Assembly (NCBI GenBank): GCA_947470855.1
Contig: CANIUQ010000012.1
Coordinates: 1-46,162, forward strand
Direction of reading: 5' to 3'
Source of the DNA: Opitutia bacterium
Lineage (GTDB): Bacteria > Verrucomicrobiota > Verrucomicrobiia > Opitutales > UBA953
DNA length: 46,162 nt
Under the pieces are notes generated by a model. That model saw nothing but the letters and a program-made list of their open reading frames with translations, searched no databases and was not told the origin of the DNA. Position numbers and translations under genes: made by a program. The first letter of the stretch is position 1. Each line of letters begins with the position of its first letter. This document shows, piece by piece, positions 7,107 through 36,613 of the stretch.

Positions 7107-8537
7107 ATGCCCAGTAGCCCTACCCTAGTCTGGTTTCGTCAAGATTTACGTTTGGCAGATAACCCAGCCCTTCGTGCCGCCGTGGCTTCAGGAGGCGAAG
7201 TGATTCCCGTTTATATTCATAATATCAAAGGAGAAGGGACTTGGGCTCCTGGCGGTGCCTCACGTTGGTGGCTACACCATGCACTCGCTGACCTTGAACA
7301 ACAATTTCAACGATTCGGCGTTTCCCTCATTATTCGTTCAGGTGATAGTTTATCGGTTTTACAAAAACTCTTAACCGAAACGGGCGCTGAACAAGTCGTC
7401 TGGAATCGACGCTACGAACCAGCGATTGTCCAACGAGATACCCAGATTAAAACTGTTTTACGAAATGCAGGTAAAAAGGTGGAATCGTTCAACGGCTCAC
7501 TTTTGCACGAGCCCTCCCGAGTCAAAAATCTTTCCGGCAATCCCTTCCAAGTTTTCACCCCTTTCTGGAAAAATTGTTTAGCAAATCACCAATGGGGTGA
7601 ACCAGAAAAAGCTCCGTCAAAAATTAAAGGTACCTCACTAAAAATCTCATCCGAGACCATTGATTCCTTAAATTTACTTCCCAAAATTAAATGGGATCGA
7701 ACCATCGCTACTTTTTGGAATCCGACACGTGCGGGAGCCGAAAAACGCTTGGCAGATTTTGTCGCTTCACCAGCCAAAGACTACGACACCGCTAGAGATT
7801 TTCCCGAACACGATGGGACTTCTCGACTCTCGCCTTATTTACACTTTGGACAAATTTCCCCTCTCGAAGCCTACGCCCGAGTCAAAGCCTCTCCCCATGG
7901 CGAAACTAAAAGCGGTCAACGTTTCTTAGCCGAGATTGGCTGGCGTGAATTTGGTTATCATTTACTCCATCATTTTAATCATACTCCAGAAAAACCCTTG
8001 CGAGCTGAGTTTGAACGTTTTCCTTGGGCTCCTGACCCTCAACTCCTTCGCTCTTGGCAAAAAGGTCGCACGGGATTCCCCATTGTCGATGCAGGGATGC
8101 GTCAGCTTTGGCAGACGGGTTGGCAACATAACCGTGTGCGCATGATTGCTGCCTCAGTGCTCGTTAAACACCTTCTCCAACCGTGGCAGTCAGGGGCCAC
8201 TTGGTTCTGGGATACTCTTGTGGATGCCGATTTGGCTTCAAACACCCTTGGCTGGCAGTGGGCTGGCGGTTGCGGAGCGGACGCAGCACCTTACTTCCGT
8301 GTGTTCAACCCCGTTCTCCAAGGAGAAAAATTCGACCCCCACGGAACCTATGTCCGCCAGTACGTCCCTGAATTGGCTAAAATGCCAGCCGAATGGATAC
8401 ACAAGCCCTGGGAAGCACCGGCTGAAGTCCTAAAGGCCGCAGGTGTCGAACTCGGAGTCAATTACCCCACTCCCGCCATTGGTTTAAATGAGGGCAGAGA
8501 CCGAGCCCTGGCCGCCTTTAAGAAGCTTAGATCCTAG
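7107..8537 (+). CDS. phrB: Deoxyribodipyrimidine photolyase
   Basis: 476 residues. The N-terminal Rossmann-like antenna domain opens with LVWFRQDLRLADNPAL. The C-terminal FAD-binding domain contains TSRLSPYLHFGQISP, the signature GFPIVDAGMRQLWQTGW and NTLGWQWAGGCGADAAPYFR, covering the FAD cavity and the tryptophan electron-transfer residues. This is the class I cyclobutane-pyrimidine-dimer photolyase/cryptochrome layout and usual length. It uses blue light to split UV dimers in DNA. The antenna cofactor (folate or deazaflavin) cannot be told from the sequence. No DASH-type extension is present. Confidence 0.95.
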   Translation: MPSSPTLVWFRQDLRLADNPALRAAVASGGEVIPVYIHNIKGEGTWAPGGASRWWLHHALADLEQQFQRFGVSLIIRSGDSLSVLQKLLTETGAEQVVWNRRYEPAIVQRDTQIKTVLRNAGKKVESFNGSLLHEPSRVKNLSGNPFQVFTPFWKNCLANHQWGEPEKAPSKIKGTSLKISSETIDSLNLLPKIKWDRTIATFWNPTRAGAEKRLADFVASPAKDYDTARDFPEHDGTSRLSPYLHFGQISPLEAYARVKASPHGETKSGQRFLAEIGWREFGYHLLHHFNHTPEKPLRAEFERFPWAPDPQLLRSWQKGRTGFPIVDAGMRQLWQTGWQHNRVRMIAASVLVKHLLQPWQSGATWFWDTLVDADLASNTLGWQWAGGCGADAAPYFRVFNPVLQGEKFDPHGTYVRQYVPELAKMPAEWIHKPWEAPAEVLKAAGVELGVNYPTPAIGLNEGRDRALAAFKKLRS

Positions 8538-8588
8538 CAAAAAACTTTTTTGAAACTTTGGCTGGGTTGCAGGGTTATATCAAATGTT

Positions 8589-9080
8589 ATGAAAATTATA
8601 ACCACACTCCTCACAGGACTATTAGCTTCATGGGCAACCTTAGCCTACGCGGGCGAATCTAAACGCACCGCTGAGTATATTCTCACGACACCTCTTGAAT
8701 TCGAAGGCAAAAATGTCGACCTCGATGTATCCTTCGTCAAACCCGTAAACTGGAAAAGCCCTAATACTGAAATCGCTTTTTTTCATGCCATGACAATGGA
8801 TCGTCATGATAAAAAGCGTGGAGGAAGCATTCTCGTAGCGATTCCTGCCGCGGATGCAGCGAAATTTGCCAAGCGTTATGGCACCGATTTCGACGGACGT
8901 AATGAATACGATCGATTGAATGGCGTCTTAACCACCGCCCCAGGTAAAAAAATTAAAGGACGCACTTGGATCATCGATATGACGGGCGGCAAAATAGCTG
9001 AACTCGTCAAAAACAAGCAGCTCGTCATCGAGGACAACGAAGGTAAAGAAGGTGAAGGTAAAGGCGAGCGCGCCCCTTAA
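8589..9080 (+). CDS. Small secreted protein of unknown function (paralogue of 26844-27353)
   Basis: 163 residues from the ATG at 8589; an upstream TTG (8550) would only add residues ahead of a good signal peptide. The N-terminus (MKIITTLLTGLLASWATLAY, ending AYA) is a Sec signal peptide with an AxA-type cleavage site. The mature part begins with a short TPLEFEGKNVDLDVSFVKP segment recalling an OB-fold strand pattern, then a GGSILVAIP strand, and ends in a charged Lys/Glu/Gly-rich tail. I do not recognise a named family. A second protein in the window shares the same order of motifs. A strong terminator for this gene lies inside the opposing purL (9141-9172). Confidence 0.75.
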   Translation: MKIITTLLTGLLASWATLAYAGESKRTAEYILTTPLEFEGKNVDLDVSFVKPVNWKSPNTEIAFFHAMTMDRHDKKRGGSILVAIPAADAAKFAKRYGTDFDGRNEYDRLNGVLTTAPGKKIKGRTWIIDMTGGKIAELVKNKQLVIEDNEGKEGEGKGERAP

Positions 9081-9108
9081 TTCATTATTAAATGTTATTT
9101 CGGAGTGG

Positions 9109-12100
9109 TTAACTAAAGTAGTCTACGCCACCTTCAAATAATCCCTGGAATTTATTTCCAGGGATATTTTTTGCCACCTGAGATCCACGTCGCTCGCTGT
9201 GCCCCATTTTTCCGAGAACACGTCCGCAAGGACTCGTAATACCTTCAACAGCCTGCACCGATCCATTAGGATTAAACTCAATCCGATGCGAAGGGACTCC
9301 TTGGGCATCACAATACTGGAAGGCCACTTGGCCATTTTTAATAAGTTCCGTCATAACCGCTGAAGAAGCCACATAGCGACCCTCACCATGCGAGAAAGGA
9401 ATCTGGTGAACTTGACCAACCTCGAGACGCGACAACCAAGGGGATTTCACTGAAGCCACCCGGGTATAGGCGTAACGCGATAGATGTCGGGCAATCGCAT
9501 TATGGAAAAGTGTGGGAGCCTGCGCATCGACATCGCGAATCTCACCAAAAGGAACGAGACCCAATTTAATTAAGGCTTGGAATCCATTACAAATACCCAA
9601 AGCGAGACCATCGCGGGATTTTAATAACTCCATGGTAGCCTCGCGAACCACTGGGGATTTAAAAACGGCGGCAATAAACTTACCCGAACCATCGGGCTCA
9701 TCACCGGCCGAGAATCCCCCAGGTATCATTAAAATCTGAGAACGTTGAATCGCCTGTGCTAAAGCCTGGAGTGATTCGGATAAGCCCTGTGCATCGTGAT
9801 TGCGGAAAACAAGAATCTCCGGTTCTGCACCAGCTTGGCGAAAAGCTCTCGCGGTATCGTATTCGCAATTACTTCCAGGAAAAACGGGTATAATAACGCG
9901 TGGACGAGCGACGCGAACCTTAGGCTTTAAACCTGAGCGCTGAGCAAAATGAATGGTTTCAGGCTGTCCAACAGGCTCCGAAGCTCGCGTTGGGAAAACT
10001 GACTCTAAAAGACTCTCGTGTGCCTGCAAAAGTTTTTCCACAGAAACCTGAACTCCCGGCCAAGTGATTTCAGCCTGAACAGTCGTTTTTCCAAGAACAC
10101 GGTGCGGCAAATCACCCAAGTCAGAATGGCGCGCGACTTCTAAAACCAGCGATCCGTAGGAAGGAGTAAAGAAATCGGCTGAAGGTACAGCGTCTAAGGC
10201 AACTCCTAAGCGATTACCAAAACACATACGTGCCAAGGCATGCCCTACTCCACCCTGACGGACCGCCGTCGCAGCAAGAATTTTTCCTGCCTTCATCAAG
10301 CGATGAACAGCCGATAAGCGATTTTGGGCCACCTTCAAGTCGGGCAACAAGGCCGAGGTACGAGGCACCTCAATGACGACGACCGTAGAACCTGCTTGCT
10401 TAAACTCAGCCGAAACAACCTCCGAGGCTTTTCCAGGAACAATGGCAAAAGAAACCAAAGTCGGTGGCACATCGAGATCTTTAAAGGAACCCGACATACT
10501 ATCTTTACCGCCAATGGCTGCTGTTCCGAAAGCACACTGAGCCTCCAGTCCGCCCAATAAGGCAACCAAAGGCTTACCCCAACGCTTAGGATCTTGTCCT
10601 AATTTTTCGAAATATTCTTGGAAAGTCAGTCGAGCACGAGCGGGGTTTCCTCCTGCAGCCGTCAAACGAGCAAGTGATTCAACCACTGCACAAACCGCAC
10701 CATGCCCTGGTGACCATTGAGCCACTTCAGGATTAAATCCGTAACTCATGATGGTACAGACATCTGTCTCACCATGTAATACAGGCAACTTAGCTGCCAT
10801 AGCCTCTTGCGGAGTCGACTGCGTTAGACCACCGAAAGGATGCAAAACGGTGTTGGCACCAATCGAAGCATCAAAACGCTCAACTAACCCACGCTGCGAA
10901 GCCAAAGGCAGAGCGCTAACCATGGCCAAGAAATCATCTGCTGTTACTGTCTTAGGCGTAACCGCAAAAGGATTTTTTTCTAAGTCAGGAGCAACCACAT
11001 GAGCCGTCGCCGTTTGTGTGACGCCATTCGTATCCAGAAAATCGCGCGAGATATCGACGATACGTTGACCACGCCATTCCATGACCAAACGTCCAGTGTT
11101 CGTGACATCAGCGACCGCAACTCCTTCTAAATTTTCTTGGCGGGCTGCCGCTAAAAATGTTGGGACATCTTTAGGCTCAAGCACAACAGCCATACGCTCT
11201 TGCGATTCGGAAAGTGCGATTTCTGTTCCATCAAGCCCATCATACTTCAATGGTACGCGATCCAAGTGCACATGCAAAGACGGTGCTAATTCACCGATTG
11301 CTACCGAGACTCCACCTGCACCGAAATCATTACAACGTTTAATTAAACGACTGACGCTAGGGTTGCGAAACAAACGCTGCAACTTACGTTCGGTAGGAGC
11401 ATCGCCTTTCTGAACCTCCGCTGAATTTTGGAGAGCCGTTTCGGTGTGTTCCTTAGAGGAGCCTGTCGCCCCACCCACCCCATCACGCCCCGTACGTCCG
11501 CCAACCAGAACAATGACATCATCTGGGGCGGGAACTTCGCGTCGAACACATGCACGAGGGCCAGCGGCCACGACGGCACCAATTTCCATCCGTTTCGCTA
11601 CATAACCTGGATGGTAGTGCTCCGAGACAAGTCCCGTCGCTAAACCAATTTGATTACCATAAGAGGAGTACCCTGCAGCTGCACCCGTCGTGATTTTACG
11701 CTGTGGCAATTTACCAGGTAGAGTTTGCTGATAGGGAGTGAGAGGATTAGCCGCGCCCGTCACCCGCATCGCTTGGTAAACGTAGGATCGACCTGAAAGG
11801 GGATCGCGAATCGCACCACCTAAACATGTTGCGGCACCACCGAAGGGCTCAATTTCTGTCGGGTGATTGTGCGTTTCGTTTTTAAACATGACCAACCACT
11901 CCTCCACCTTACCATCGATTTCCACAGGAACGACAATCGAGGCCGCATTGACCTCCTCCGAGTCTTCCATGTCATCCAAAATACCGCGTCGCTTTAATTC
12001 TCGCCCACCAATCGTGGCGATATCCATCAAGCAAATCGGCTTACCTTGGCGATTGAGGCCTAAGCGAATCGATTGATAGTTCTGCCAAGCTTGTCGAAAA

Positions 12101-12837
12101 GGCTCTAATAAAGGAGAAGGCTCAAACTCAACAGCAGTCAATTCAGCCAAGAAAGTAGTGTGTCGACAATGATCCGACCAGTAAGTGTCCAAGAGTTTAA
12201 TCTCTGTCAGCGTTGGCTCCCGCTTTGCCTCATCTTGAAAGTATTTTTGACAGAAAGCCAAATCGGCATCGGACATGGCTAAACCCATGCTTTTACGTAA
12301 ACTCGCAAGTTCAGCAGATGATTTTTTTAGAAAGTCTTTCACCGAAGCCACGGCCGCAGGCACAGGAGCCGCTCGACGAAGAGAATCAGGCTTAACCAGA
12401 GTTGCTTCACGCGAATCGACTGGATTGATGAGATAAGCTTTAATTCGTTTAACATCCTCATCGGACAGTTTTCCGGAAAGAATGTAGACGCGTGCAGCGG
12501 CAACTTCGGGGCGCTGACCACCACTAACAATTTGCAAGCATTGGGCAGCCGAATCGGCACGCTGGTCAAATTGACCTGGTAAATACTCAACCGCAAATGC
12601 CACCTCACCTGCCGCGATGGCCAAAGACTCAACGGTTACGTCATCGACGGGAGGTTCAGCAAAAACTGTAGGTATCGCTTGGCTGATTGAAGACTCAGAG
12701 GCGCCTTCGATATCGTAGCGTTGAATAATACGTATTCCCTGCAAAGAAGGTAGGCCAAGCGAGTCGCGCAGATCGCGCAACAAGCTTTCGGCTTCAGACC
12801 GAAAGGGGGGCTTTTTTTCGACGTAAAGACGTTTCAT
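9109..12837 (-). CDS. purL: Phosphoribosylformylglycinamidine synthase, large single-chain form
   Basis: 1242 residues from the ATG at 12837, chosen because a good SD (GGGGAG) precedes it; the open frame runs further upstream but lacks similarity there. Order: PurS-like N-terminal domain, linker (TYWSDHCRHTTF), two FGAM-synthetase halves (FKNETHNHPTEIEPFGG, GGRTGRDGVGGAT, GGKDSMSGSF) and a C-terminal glutaminase with PVFPGSNCEYDTA, nucleophile Cys in LGICNGFQAL and the His/Glu of SHGEGRYV. It makes FGAM from FGAR, ATP and glutamine in purine synthesis. This long form replaces the separate PurS/PurQ/PurL set. No other pur gene is adjacent. Confidence 0.95.
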   Translation of the reverse strand: MKRLYVEKKPPFRSEAESLLRDLRDSLGLPSLQGIRIIQRYDIEGASESSISQAIPTVFAEPPVDDVTVESLAIAAGEVAFAVEYLPGQFDQRADSAAQCLQIVSGGQRPEVAAARVYILSGKLSDEDVKRIKAYLINPVDSREATLVKPDSLRRAAPVPAAVASVKDFLKKSSAELASLRKSMGLAMSDADLAFCQKYFQDEAKREPTLTEIKLLDTYWSDHCRHTTFLAELTAVEFEPSPLLEPFRQAWQNYQSIRLGLNRQGKPICLMDIATIGGRELKRRGILDDMEDSEEVNAASIVVPVEIDGKVEEWLVMFKNETHNHPTEIEPFGGAATCLGGAIRDPLSGRSYVYQAMRVTGAANPLTPYQQTLPGKLPQRKITTGAAAGYSSYGNQIGLATGLVSEHYHPGYVAKRMEIGAVVAAGPRACVRREVPAPDDVIVLVGGRTGRDGVGGATGSSKEHTETALQNSAEVQKGDAPTERKLQRLFRNPSVSRLIKRCNDFGAGGVSVAIGELAPSLHVHLDRVPLKYDGLDGTEIALSESQERMAVVLEPKDVPTFLAAARQENLEGVAVADVTNTGRLVMEWRGQRIVDISRDFLDTNGVTQTATAHVVAPDLEKNPFAVTPKTVTADDFLAMVSALPLASQRGLVERFDASIGANTVLHPFGGLTQSTPQEAMAAKLPVLHGETDVCTIMSYGFNPEVAQWSPGHGAVCAVVESLARLTAAGGNPARARLTFQEYFEKLGQDPKRWGKPLVALLGGLEAQCAFGTAAIGGKDSMSGSFKDLDVPPTLVSFAIVPGKASEVVSAEFKQAGSTVVVIEVPRTSALLPDLKVAQNRLSAVHRLMKAGKILAATAVRQGGVGHALARMCFGNRLGVALDAVPSADFFTPSYGSLVLEVARHSDLGDLPHRVLGKTTVQAEITWPGVQVSVEKLLQAHESLLESVFPTRASEPVGQPETIHFAQRSGLKPKVRVARPRVIIPVFPGSNCEYDTARAFRQAGAEPEILVFRNHDAQGLSESLQALAQAIQRSQILMIPGGFSAGDEPDGSGKFIAAVFKSPVVREATMELLKSRDGLALGICNGFQALIKLGLVPFGEIRDVDAQAPTLFHNAIARHLSRYAYTRVASVKSPWLSRLEVGQVHQIPFSHGEGRYVASSAVMTELIKNGQVAFQYCDAQGVPSHRIEFNPNGSVQAVEGITSPCGRVLGKMGHSERRGSQVAKNIPGNKFQGLFEGGVDYFS
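9141..9172 (+). terminator. Terminator of the 8589 gene embedded in purL
   Basis: ATCCCTGGAA (9141-9150) and TTCCAGGGAT (9156-9165) form a perfect 10-bp stem with a 5-base loop, followed on the plus strand by ATTTTTT (9166-9172). It stands about 60 bases after the plus-strand stop and lies wholly within the 3' coding end of the convergent purL. The minus-strand side has only a broken T run, so termination should mainly serve the plus-strand gene. Confidence 0.75.
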
Positions 12838-12931
12838 GAAGTCTCCCCTACCTTGTCGGAAATCAGGGAGGGAGGACGACACAAAATTATGAAATTTTGT
12901 TACCAGACCTCCCCTTAGTACGCACCAACCC

Positions 12932-12965
12932 AAAGAAAAGGGGCGAACCTCACGATTCGCCCCTT
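12932..12965 (-). terminator. Rho-independent terminator after ppdK
   Basis: On the minus strand a perfect 10-bp stem, AAGGGGCGAA with TTCGCCCCTT (12938-12947 and 12956-12965), encloses an 8-base loop and is followed by TTTTCTTT. It starts 22 bases beyond the ppdK stop codon and separates ppdK from purL. Confidence 0.85.
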
Positions 12966-25800: not shown

Positions 25801-26853
25801 ATGTCCTTTCTCTACGAAAAAGTCTTAGCCAAGGCCCTTTACGCGATGGACCCAGAAACCGCTCACCAAGTGGGTCTGCGTGGCATGGGAGTTCTAGGCT
25901 CAATTACCCCGCTGCGAGTATTACTCGAGCGTCGACTTTTACCAAAAGATGCAAAACCCATCGAACTCTTTGGACTCAAGTTTCCCAATCACATCGGGCT
26001 AGCAGCAGGATTCGATAAAGATGGAATCGGTTGGCGCGGAGCGGGGGCTTTAGGCTTTGGCCACGTGGAAATCGGGACAGTGACGCGTCACCCCCAAGCT
26101 GGCAATGAGAAGCCTCGCGTCTTTCGTTACCCCCACCTTAAAGCGGTCGTTAACTCTTATGGGTTTCCCAATGCTGGCGCTGATGCCTTGCGTGCTCGCT
26201 TACTGAGTCAACCAGGTCGCGGTAAAAGACCCTACCCTCTCGGAATCAATATTGGAAAATCTAAAATCACTCCCTTGGAATTAGCACACGAAGATTACCT
26301 CTATTCATTCAAGCTTCTGGCACCTTTCGCTGACTACCTTGTTGTCAATATCAGCAGTCCAAACACGCCAGGACTACGTGCACTGCAAGATCGTGCTCCA
26401 CTCATTCAACTTCTAACAACCTTGAAAAAGGAAAATCTCCAAACGGCGGGTGGACCAGTGCCACTTTTACTCAAAGTAGCACCTGATTTAAATCCGAAAC
26501 AACTCGAAGATATTGTTCAAGTCGTTGATGAAGTTGGGTTCTCTGGCATCATTGCCACTAACACCACTATTAGTCGTCCACCTGGCACTGAAATCTGTGA
26601 AACCAAAGGAGGATTGAGTGGCAAACCATTACTCGAAAAGTCTCTGCAGGTCGTACGCTTTCTTCATAAAGCTTCAGGAGGTCGCATCCCCATTATTGGC
26701 TGCGGAGGAATCACTCAGGCTAAAGATGCAGGCCGATTCATGGATGAGGGAGCCTCTCTCGTGCAAGTCTACTCCGGCTTGGTTTTCCGTGGCCCCAGTC
26801 TCGCTCGCGAAATCAGTGAAGCCCTTGCATGGCATCAACGCACATGGGCCTAA
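25801..26853 (+). CDS. pyrD: Dihydroorotate dehydrogenase (quinone), class 2
   Basis: 350 residues. The N-terminal helical membrane-associating extension (about 1-40) and the motif GLAAGFDKDG mark the class 2 enzyme. The catalytic serine lies in VNISSPNTPGLRALQ. FMN phosphate contacts are in IIGCGGI and the preceding GGLSGKPL. It oxidises dihydroorotate to orotate at the inner membrane with quinone as acceptor, in pyrimidine synthesis. Its end overlaps the start of the next gene by about 10 nt. Confidence 0.95.
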   Translation: MSFLYEKVLAKALYAMDPETAHQVGLRGMGVLGSITPLRVLLERRLLPKDAKPIELFGLKFPNHIGLAAGFDKDGIGWRGAGALGFGHVEIGTVTRHPQAGNEKPRVFRYPHLKAVVNSYGFPNAGADALRARLLSQPGRGKRPYPLGINIGKSKITPLELAHEDYLYSFKLLAPFADYLVVNISSPNTPGLRALQDRAPLIQLLTTLKKENLQTAGGPVPLLLKVAPDLNPKQLEDIVQVVDEVGFSGIIATNTTISRPPGTEICETKGGLSGKPLLEKSLQVVRFLHKASGGRIPIIGCGGITQAKDAGRFMDEGASLVQVYSGLVFRGPSLAREISEALAWHQRTWA

Positions 26854-27353
26854 AAACTCTACTTTATTGCTTAATCATGAGCGGTACTGTTTTAGCTGCG
26901 AATCGCCCCGTGGCCAAAAAAGGCGACACCATGGTTGCAGATACATGGCGAGCAAACCCGAAACAATTTGAAGCCAAAGCCATTAAGACAGCCGTCATCA
27001 GTTTGGATCCTCCTGGGTTTGTCAGTAGTGATGCACCGGTCGCTGCGGTTCGTATCCTAACTGGAAATCAAAAAGATGAAGTAGGCGGGAAAATTATTGT
27101 CTTAATGCCCCTTGAAGAATTTCAGGAATTCGTGGGCAACTTCTCACAAAGAGAAATAGGTTCTCGCCGGGATGGTTCACTTCTCGGTGCGTCATTTCCC
27201 GTTATGAATGGAATCTATGTCACCATTCAGGGTGAAGGAGCTGCTCTTTATCAATTAAAACCCGAGTTAGTCCAAAAATTAAATAAGCCGAGTAAAATTC
27301 TCGCCGACCAAATCGAACTAGAAAAGCAGTCCGAAAGTACCGAAAAAAAGTGA
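26844..27353 (+). CDS. Small secreted protein of unknown function (paralogue of 8589-9080)
   Basis: 169 residues from the ATG at 26844, chosen because it places a compact signal peptide (MGLKTLLYCLIMSGTVLA) at the N-terminus; ATG 26829 is an alternative. It overlaps pyrD, so the two should be co-transcribed. The mature part shares an order of motifs with the 8589 protein: NPKQFEAKAIKTAV..., then a PG/S-rich turn, then GGKIIVLMPLEEFQEFVGNF. The last ~25 residues are charged (KQSESTEKK). The shared pattern suggests a small extracytoplasmic beta-fold, possibly OB-like; no named family is recognised. Confidence 0.72.
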   Translation: MGLKTLLYCLIMSGTVLAANRPVAKKGDTMVADTWRANPKQFEAKAIKTAVISLDPPGFVSSDAPVAAVRILTGNQKDEVGGKIIVLMPLEEFQEFVGNFSQREIGSRRDGSLLGASFPVMNGIYVTIQGEGAALYQLKPELVQKLNKPSKILADQIELEKQSESTEKK

Positions 27354-27361
27354 AGTAGTTA

Positions 27362-27922
27362 TTAAGGAGCCCTAGGGGACTTCTTTAACTGTACTGGAAT
27401 ATGTACTTCTGATTGCTTCAGGAAAAAGGGAACAAAGGGACTGTTCCAATAAACCCCGTAAGCCTCGCCCGTAACTTCATAGTCGGTCTGAACAGCCAAC
27501 CATGTTTGAAGTTTAATCAAAGCTTCAGTGTAATTTTCCTCACTGTAAGAACCGCGAATACCAATCGCCGCAACGAGTCGAACGGGTAAATCTTGAAATT
27601 TAACTTCAGCCGAAGGCTGGACGTCCGCTCGCTGCTGAGATTGCGAGTCCATGTAAAAAACCATCACCCCAGGATCCATACGAGCTTCTACTGGTGCTGT
27701 CATGGGGATTTGATTTGAACTGATGTAACGAAAAAGTTTTCCAAACAACTGATTGTTACTTGAAAAGTATCGATTCGAGGATTCGGCTAAAAGTAAACGA
27801 GCAGCTGGAAGTTGCTTGATTTCGATAACTCCTGGTGCCGTTCGCGGATAGGCATCCTCCACGGCGTTCGCAAATGTTGGGAAAAAGGCGGACATAAATA
27901 CCAAAAAAAAGGCTAATTTCAT
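27362..27922 (-). CDS. SOUL-family heme-binding-like protein
   Basis: 186 residues from the ATG at 27922, which starts a clear signal peptide (MKLAFFLVFMSAFFPTFANA). The rest follows the SOUL/HBP pattern: VIEIKQLPAARLLLAES, GKLFRYISSNQIPMTAPVEA, VMVFYMDSQ, VRLVAAIGIRGSYSEEN and a C-terminal YWNSPFVPFF. Eukaryotic relatives bind heme or tetrapyrroles; in bacteria the role is poorly defined. It is predicted to be periplasmic. The gene converges with the pyrD unit and diverges from the DUF502 gene. Confidence 0.85.
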   Translation of the reverse strand: MKLAFFLVFMSAFFPTFANAVEDAYPRTAPGVIEIKQLPAARLLLAESSNRYFSSNNQLFGKLFRYISSNQIPMTAPVEARMDPGVMVFYMDSQSQQRADVQPSAEVKFQDLPVRLVAAIGIRGSYSEENYTEALIKLQTWLAVQTDYEVTGEAYGVYWNSPFVPFFLKQSEVHIPVQLKKSPRAP

Positions 27923-28013
27923 TCGTTTCAGTCTATGCGGGATAAAATGAATAGCAAACTTTAGCCTGCGATAGACCTCTTGCCTCCTCACCAAAAAGGC
28001 CTTTTGTAATGGA

Positions 28014-28694
28014 ATGTCCGACCTTCCAGAAAAAACGACGTTTCTTTCCCGTGTTGGTCACAATTTTTTGACCGGTTTGTTTTTGGTTATGCCTCTTGGT
28101 CTGACCTTTTACGTGGTCACCATTTTAGTCGGACTGATTGGTGCACCAGTGCAAGGCATCCTGCAAGCAGTCCTCCCACTCGTTTTCAATAATCCCGACA
28201 AAGTCATTAATTTCGAAAGTGGCCCCCTCCATACTGCTCTCGTGATTATCTCCGCCCTCATTATGGCGATGATCTTAGTTACGCTCGGGTGGCTTTCGAA
28301 GAGAATTTTTGGCAAAATTATCCATCGTTGGTTTGCCGAAAAAGTGGAGCGCATGCCTGGACTGGGTGCCATCTACAACACGATTCGCCAAATGGTCGAT
28401 GCCTTGAGTGGAAGAAATAAAGACACCTTTCGCCGAGTCGTTTTGGTGCAATTCCCCCACCCTCATTGCTGGAGTATTGCTTTCGTGACTCACGAACAAC
28501 CCGAAATTTTTTCCGAACTACTGCAAGAAAGAATGGTTAATGTTTTCGTGCCCAACGCCCCCGCTCCCACCGCAGGATTTATTTTACAAGTTCCAGAAAA
28601 AGAGATTCGGGAAACTTCATTAACCGTACCCGACGCTATCACTTTACTGATGAGTTTTGGGTCGGTTTTACCTACCCCCAAAGTAAAAAAGTAA
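28014..28694 (+). CDS. DUF502-family membrane protein
   Basis: 226 residues. A short cytoplasmic N-terminus, two transmembrane helices (about 18-45 and 75-100) and a soluble C-terminal domain with the DUF502 signature VERMPGLGAIYNTIRQ...DAL and VLVQFPHPHCWSIAFVT. The molecular function of DUF502 is not established; relatives occur widely in bacteria and plants. It is the first gene of a three-gene run (6 bp to the RecO-like gene, then a 1-nt overlap with the helicase gene), so a connection with DNA repair or simply shared transcription is possible. Confidence 0.88.
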   Translation: MSDLPEKTTFLSRVGHNFLTGLFLVMPLGLTFYVVTILVGLIGAPVQGILQAVLPLVFNNPDKVINFESGPLHTALVIISALIMAMILVTLGWLSKRIFGKIIHRWFAEKVERMPGLGAIYNTIRQMVDALSGRNKDTFRRVVLVQFPHPHCWSIAFVTHEQPEIFSELLQERMVNVFVPNAPAPTAGFILQVPEKEIRETSLTVPDAITLLMSFGSVLPTPKVKK

Positions 28695-35767: not shown

Positions 35768-36613
35768 ATGAAGGCTTATCTCGACCTACTCCGCCATGTT
35801 CGGCAAACCGGAGAAGTTCGCAAAGACCGCACGGGAGTGGGCACCATCGGAATTTTTGGTGCCCAACTGCGATTCGATTTAGCTGAGGGATTCCCTCTGG
35901 TTACCACTAAAAAAGTCCATACCCGTTCAATCATCCAAGAGTTGCTTTGGTTTCTAGCAGGAAGAACTGACAACCAATGGCTCACCGAGCGAGGCGTAAC
36001 GATTTGGGATGAATGGGCCACCGCTGAACAATGTGCGAAATTTGGTCGGGCCGCTGGGGAACTCGGTCCTGTTTACGGACACCAATGGAGACGATTTGGC
36101 GCAACAAAAAATCCTGATGGAAGTTATCGTGCTGATGGAGTCGACCAAATCAAAAACCTCTTAGAACAACTCAAAAAGAATCCTTCCAGTCGAAGACATA
36201 TCGTCACTGGTTGGAATCCCTTAGAAGCCGACCAAGTTGCCCTGCCCCCTTGTCATACGCTCTTTCAATTTCACGTCTCTACCGATCATCGCCTCAGTTG
36301 CCAACTCTACCAGCGAAGTGCTGATTTATTTTTAGGCGTCCCTTTCAATATCGCCAGTTACTCTCTCCTCACGCACATGATTGCCCAAGTCACTGGACTT
36401 AAACCTGGGCATTTCGTTCATACTTTCGGAGATGCCCACATTTATTTAAATCACCTCGAGCAAGTCGATTTACAATGTTCGCGTGAACCACGTCCCTTGC
36501 CGCGTTTGATTTTAAATCCTGCCGTGACTGATCTCTTTGCTTTCAAATACGAAGATATCACCCTTGAAGGATACGACCCGCATCCGGCCATTAAAGCACC
36601 TGTCGCCATTTAA
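35768..36613 (+). CDS. thyA: Thymidylate synthase
   Basis: 281 residues. Folate-dependent Thy[21 protein letters not shown] at the N-terminus (phosphate-binding Arg), WDEWA, the catalytic Cys in [31 protein letters not shown] and the late [10 protein letters not shown]. It methylates dUMP to dTMP, turning methylene-THF into DHF, which the adjacent folA product recycles. The start is preceded by AGGGAAT, a weak SD. Confidence 0.96.

Follow-up and report, generated by a model that had tools for sequence, protein, structure and literature searches.

Two small look-alike genes in one genome

Two genes for small, apparently secreted proteins lie about 18 kb apart on the forward strand of the DNA analysed here, a stretch of 46,162 nucleotides from an Opitutia bacterium (hereafter the window). 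Their likeness raises the question of whether they share an ancestor, by which routes they reached their present places, and what their products may do. Protein A (163 aa) is encoded at 8589..9080, from the ATG at 8589 to the stop at 9080, and protein B (169 aa) at 26844..27353, from the ATG at 26844 to the stop at 27353. Alternative starts are available for both, namely a TTG at 8550 that would lengthen A and an in-frame ATG at 26829 for B. The starts at 8589 and 26844 place a hydrophobic stretch N-terminally, so that both proteins, read by eye, begin with a signal-peptide-like sequence. The putative signal peptide would comprise 21 residues in A (8589..8651) and 19 residues in B (26844..26900). 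Both frames are coding, and their codon changes are compatible with purifying selection: those in A were 11 synonymous and 3 non-synonymous relative to genome G018, and those in B were 16 and 4 relative to G018 and 70 and 27 relative to G031.

The shared pattern described in the original prediction was found in full. An opening of the form P-x-x-FE-x-K is present in both proteins (PLEFEGK in A, PKQFEAK in B), the central GG-(S/K)-I-(L/I)-V strand is followed by a proline (GGSILVAIP and GGKIIVLMP), and a helix-like, F-containing stretch comes next, with the charged tails last. The conserved domain, with boundaries as trimmed for a joint 38-row domain alignment (A3), corresponds to 8652..9002 in A and 26901..27278 in B. 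It is followed in A by a Glu/Lys/Gly-rich charged tail (9003..9077), unconserved in an alignment of five A-type rows, and in B by a short tail (27279..27350).

Common ancestry of A and B

The direct similarity between A and B was low, with 20% identity and E 0.010 in pairwise BLASTP, and each protein retrieved the other in their own genome at E 0.007-0.010. The profile-profile comparison proposed with the original prediction was carried out with the five A-type rows (A1) and 18 B-type rows (A2), and over 108 columns the two profiles matched in hhalign at E 1.9e-9, with a probability of 96.3, giving a homologous stretch of approximately 110 residues. After removal of the signal peptides, the match was retained (probability 95.2, score 52.5), against a peak of probability 3.3 and score 20.6 among 200 column shuffles and values of 0.5 and 15.1 for a reversed profile. 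In addition, the A-type profile directly found B-type members, and the B-type profile found A-type members. The joint A3 profile detected A at E 7.3e-31 and B at E 1.7e-35 in their own genome; since both proteins are rows of A3, the independent support comes from the hhalign match, the shuffles and the cross-matches.

An origin of the likeness in chance short motifs of two unrelated secreted proteins is extremely improbable and was refuted at the sequence level, because the pairwise similarity is weak by itself but none of the 200 shuffles came near the real score, each profile cross-matches the other type, and the family members align co-linearly. At this level, A and B were shown to be homologous members of one domain family with two branches. 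The pair had been said to look paralogous. Common ancestry stands, but B belongs to a pyrD-linked subfamily, the nearest relatives of A lie in another order, and A and B look like members that separated anciently rather than recent paralogues.

Spread and architectures of the domain family

The A profile matched 32 of 372 sampled genomes of the order, including B-type genes (G059, G158), a short third subgroup (f17) and two partial short matches. The A3 profile matched 45 of the 384 genomes in a class sample and 15 of the 387 in a phylum sample; these 15 all lie within the same class, for a sample whose out-of-class share was not given. Within the class, the distribution is patchy. Only a GG pair, one Ala and one Thr are at least 90% conserved over the 38 rows; GK and Tyr/Phe-Gly are common in the family, and A and B both match A3 with a T...GGxIxV core. 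The isoelectric point of the domain spans 4.4-9.6 across the family.

The original prediction recognised no known family, and the library searches agree with it. Pfam, NCBIfam and PHROGs yielded no match, or weak ones limited to one or two members (e.g., Transposase_23, Avidin, Ribosomal_S4e at 0.0049, and a single cyclohexanecarboxyl-CoA dehydrogenase match at 0.0031), no family of these libraries explained the domain, and PDB sequence searches returned nothing below E 0.38. The viral contigs scanned held no relative of the family, and the scan of genome contigs matched only the close relatives L035 and L036. No published description of the domain was found in the titles and abstract openings surveyed. 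Some candidate matches were dropped from the family: those of G049 and G044 had in-frame stops and E about 0.001, that of G058 (C1) fell in a 6629-residue frame, and one in the window's own genome (C5) covered the tail only and held one stop.

Most of the family frames examined are standalone proteins with a signal-like start by eye, and other architectures were also observed. Tandem copies of the domain (two) occur in G082 and G109, and one frame of G082, 542 residues in length, has an extended tail of low complexity. In genus g151, the domain lies near the N terminus of three frames (352-389 residues) that, by eye, close with a hydrophobic stretch. In five proteins, the order is SNase, helix-hairpin-helix and then the new domain (genomes G149, G146, G107, G092 and G167; loci L101, L094, L098, L099 and L100). 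All five passed the Pfam cut-offs for SNase (PF00565; 22.6-39.8 bits, cut-off 21) and for HHH_3 (PF12836; 43.3-49.5 bits, cut-off 27), and hhalign matched their C-terminal domain with probability 92.2 to the A-type and 94.5 to the B-type. The same domain forms the C-terminal part of these thermonuclease-like SNase-HhH proteins, as a third domain covered by no Pfam model. In contrast to these fusion relatives, A and B gave no match to SNase or helix-hairpin-helix.

Neighbouring genes differ between families. For the neighbour clusters listed, with reading-frame shadows of family genes set aside, sharing was seen within families and not across the domain family as a whole. Two distant members, L086 (G138) and L105 (G149), lie near genes like the window ORFs at 35768 and 36537, which we take to be thyA and folA.

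Fold and possible function

In an OB fold, five strands form a closed barrel and a helix connects the third strand to the fourth, and the original prediction had suggested that A and B might be OB-like. AlphaFold models were obtained for both proteins from three-row alignments, with pLDDT 43 and pTM 0.41 for A and pLDDT 40 and pTM 0.38 for B. In the low-confidence model of B, the elements H20-24, E28-41, E46-56, E61-70, H71-82 and E105-109 follow one another in the strand-helix order of an OB barrel, with the fifth strand missing. This order fits the suggestion, but both models are of low confidence, and Foldseek found no match for them at E 0.001 or better; the best were a SacM protein of the SnoaL-like group for B (E 0.043) and a cell-surface protein for A (E 0.46). 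An OB fold for A and B, although consistent with the model of B, is accordingly unproven.

The tRNA_anti-like OB-fold family (PF12869) likewise consists of small signal-bearing proteins. A and B differ from it in having neither a Pfam match to PF12869 nor a profile-profile match, the family profile reaching an hhalign probability of only 0.4 against a real PF12869 member. A tRNA_anti-like protein adjoins the A-type gene in three g179 genomes (L089:797-1312, L085, L088), as read from a Pfam run on one of them and from the 92-93% likeness of the other two.

Since the domain spans pI 4.4-9.6 and has no conserved catalytic set, and since the neighbours listed differ between families, it is probably a small non-enzymatic binding module. 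After the putative export, A and B would each fold as a small barrel, probably OB-like, and this extracytoplasmic barrel would bind a ligand or polymer without acting as a catalyst. Within the nuclease fusions, the domain would hold or position a substrate or partner beside the nuclease. A and B would represent the domain working by itself, and the variable tails or extra regions would set its location.

Two more specific functions can be weighed against this binding module. The first takes the domain as an extracytoplasmic nucleic-acid-binding OB fold that assists in processing environmental DNA or RNA. The position of the domain C-terminal to SNase and helix-hairpin-helix in the five fusions speaks for it, as does the element order in the model of B; a nucleic acid would be the foremost candidate ligand solely in the case of the fusion forms. 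For the family as a whole, the pI range implies that no nucleic-acid-binding charge is conserved, a conserved basic set is absent, the standalone forms share no nucleic-acid neighbour among the clusters listed, and the fold itself is unproven, which makes this reading somewhat unlikely. The second, in which tails place the domain in the cell envelope, where it would serve a structural or adhesive purpose, would accommodate the many members with charged or Pro/Gly-rich tails, the low-complexity tail of the long G082 frame and the hydrophobic ends of the three proteins of one genus. It leaves the nuclease fusions unexplained, and no envelope partner was recognised among the neighbours listed; we consider it unlikely. 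The non-enzymatic binding module is the reading favoured here.

B in the pyrD-SOUL slot

The start of B overlaps by 10 nt the end of an ORF at 25801..26853 (+), presumably pyrD, as in the original prediction, and this ORF lies 5′ of B in all 14 B-bearing genomes seen in the genus. Convergent with B is the gene of a SOUL heme-binding family protein (27362..27994, minus strand; PF04832, 68.2 bits), and the next conserved neighbour past it encodes a DUF502 protein (28014..28694, plus strand; PF04367, 98.5 bits). All 14 of the 14 genus genomes with B, and G058 as well, show the order pyrD-B-SOUL-DUF502 within about 1.5 kb. Only the pyrD side is kept in G060, and none of the three neighbours lies near B in G055, G056 and G059.

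In the survey of related genomes, B was present in 14 of 55 genomes of the genus and in five of the six other genomes of the family; many of the 41 genus genomes without it are less than 90% complete. In all 11 of these 41 that were tested, pyrD is followed by SOUL without B. A small other ORF fills the pyrD-SOUL gap in two B-less genomes, G041 (L146) and G001 (L147). From this conserved position, B is likely the resident form, occupying a fixed slot, and the older of the two. SOUL is a separate gene whose place beside B is conserved, and a partnership between the two proteins is a guess from gene position alone.

The B proteins also differ in length. Some 75 C-terminal residues are missing from B of the window, G018 and G031, which form a three-genome clade, and also from G056; this region follows the position of the short tail in the other 11 B-types of the genus, and is present in G055, G058, G059 and G060. 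The assemblies of the three-genome clade measure 0.9-1.4 Mb, smaller than most of the genus, and one of them is only 74% complete.

The origin of A

A lies between two ORFs that we take to be phr, encoding a photolyase (7107..8537, plus strand, 5′ of A), and purL (9109..12933, minus strand, convergent with A). In the genus, A was found in three of 55 genomes only, those of the three-genome clade: that of the window (G000), G018, and G031, in which a 3′ fragment is preserved at a contig end. Its neighbours in G018 are phr and purL as in the window, and only the purL side is visible in G031. Four further genomes show the slot (G042, G053, G019 and G049), and in each of them it lacks A; phr and purL were not seen on one locus in the remaining genomes examined, which have no bearing on it. 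The spacing without A is a few bases in G042 and G053 and about 200 bases in G019. In G049, a PhnA-domain (YjdM) gene occupies the gap (L114:2366-2707), on account of which the phr-purL gap may be an insertion spot.

The closest matches to A belong to family f44 of another order of the class, with 61% (G948) and 62% (G470) identity, against 38% for the best match within its own order. A-type genes are carried by 10 of 26 f44 genomes, and all 16 without one belong to a single genus. In a 78-row tree, flagged by the software for its low number of columns and its long branches, A was placed among f44 and f30 rows (98/87), apart from the own-order A-types and from B. A 44-row tree, from which 38 of 82 rows had been removed beforehand (most B-types, the fusions, f17, f62 and other long branches), grouped A with three f44 rows (92/88), and 20 own-order A-types together with G446_L090 formed a group that excludes A (99/98). 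The branch separating B from the A-types is long (100/100).

AU tests, with groups picked after the first tree had been seen, were more reserved. With A constrained to group with the 20 A-types of its own order, p was 0.0136, but this constraint also expelled G446_L090, which the tree places inside the own-order group, and it therefore overstated the case for transfer; with G446_L090 included, the grouping was not rejected (p 0.066). Placing A with all ten f44 rows cost 3.7 lnL relative to the free tree (p 0.10), and f44 without A gave p 0.052. A grouping of A with five B rows was not rejected either (p 0.45), a value that we attribute to weak resolution where the A-types diverge and do not read as evidence for duplication.

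Vertical descent, with A as an old member or in-lineage paralogue lost in most relatives, would need no transfer between orders, and the two groupings that the AU tests left standing (p 0.066 and p 0.45) are in its favour, as is the behaviour of B, by which family genes come and go at fixed slots. Against it stand an identity of 61-62% to genes of another order, compared with at most 38% within the own order and 20% to B, the coherence of the own-order group without A, the long branch between B and the A-types, and the absence of A from 52 of 55 genus genomes. Vertical descent is on these grounds quite unlikely. The evidence leans towards transfer of A from another order of the class, with identity and patchiness weighing as much as the tree, and the three-genome clade likely gained the gene into the phr-purL gap.

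The G031 copy (L036) provides a further indication of movement. Over the 177 bases of A visible there, identity to the window is 98.3%, and positions 8901-9111 contain three mismatches, whereas the adjoining end of purL (9109-9399) is only 82.5% identical, the divergence of about 18% beginning at the very end of purL, at 9112. Because none of the three changes in A alters the protein, constraint at the protein level does not account for the near-identity. The simplest reading of these sequences is that the G000 and G031 lineages recently exchanged the A gene; an artefact of the contig end is possible.

Implications of the two proposed histories

Taken as a whole, the preferred explanation, in which one domain family comprises a resident B and a gained A and its exported barrel binds without catalysis, has in our estimation an even chance of being right. 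A broader proposal, in which an undescribed extracytoplasmic binding domain of this class serves as the third module of secreted SNase-HhH nucleases and also travels between orders as a one-gene cassette, with the G031 copy pointing to a recent move or exchange inside the genus, appears rather unlikely in its entirety.

For the organism, the findings suggest that each of the two look-alike genes in this small genome has a history of its own, a difference that calling them paralogues would hide. For the family, dozens of small proteins left unnamed by the searched libraries would gain a family and, through the nuclease fusions, a functional lead.
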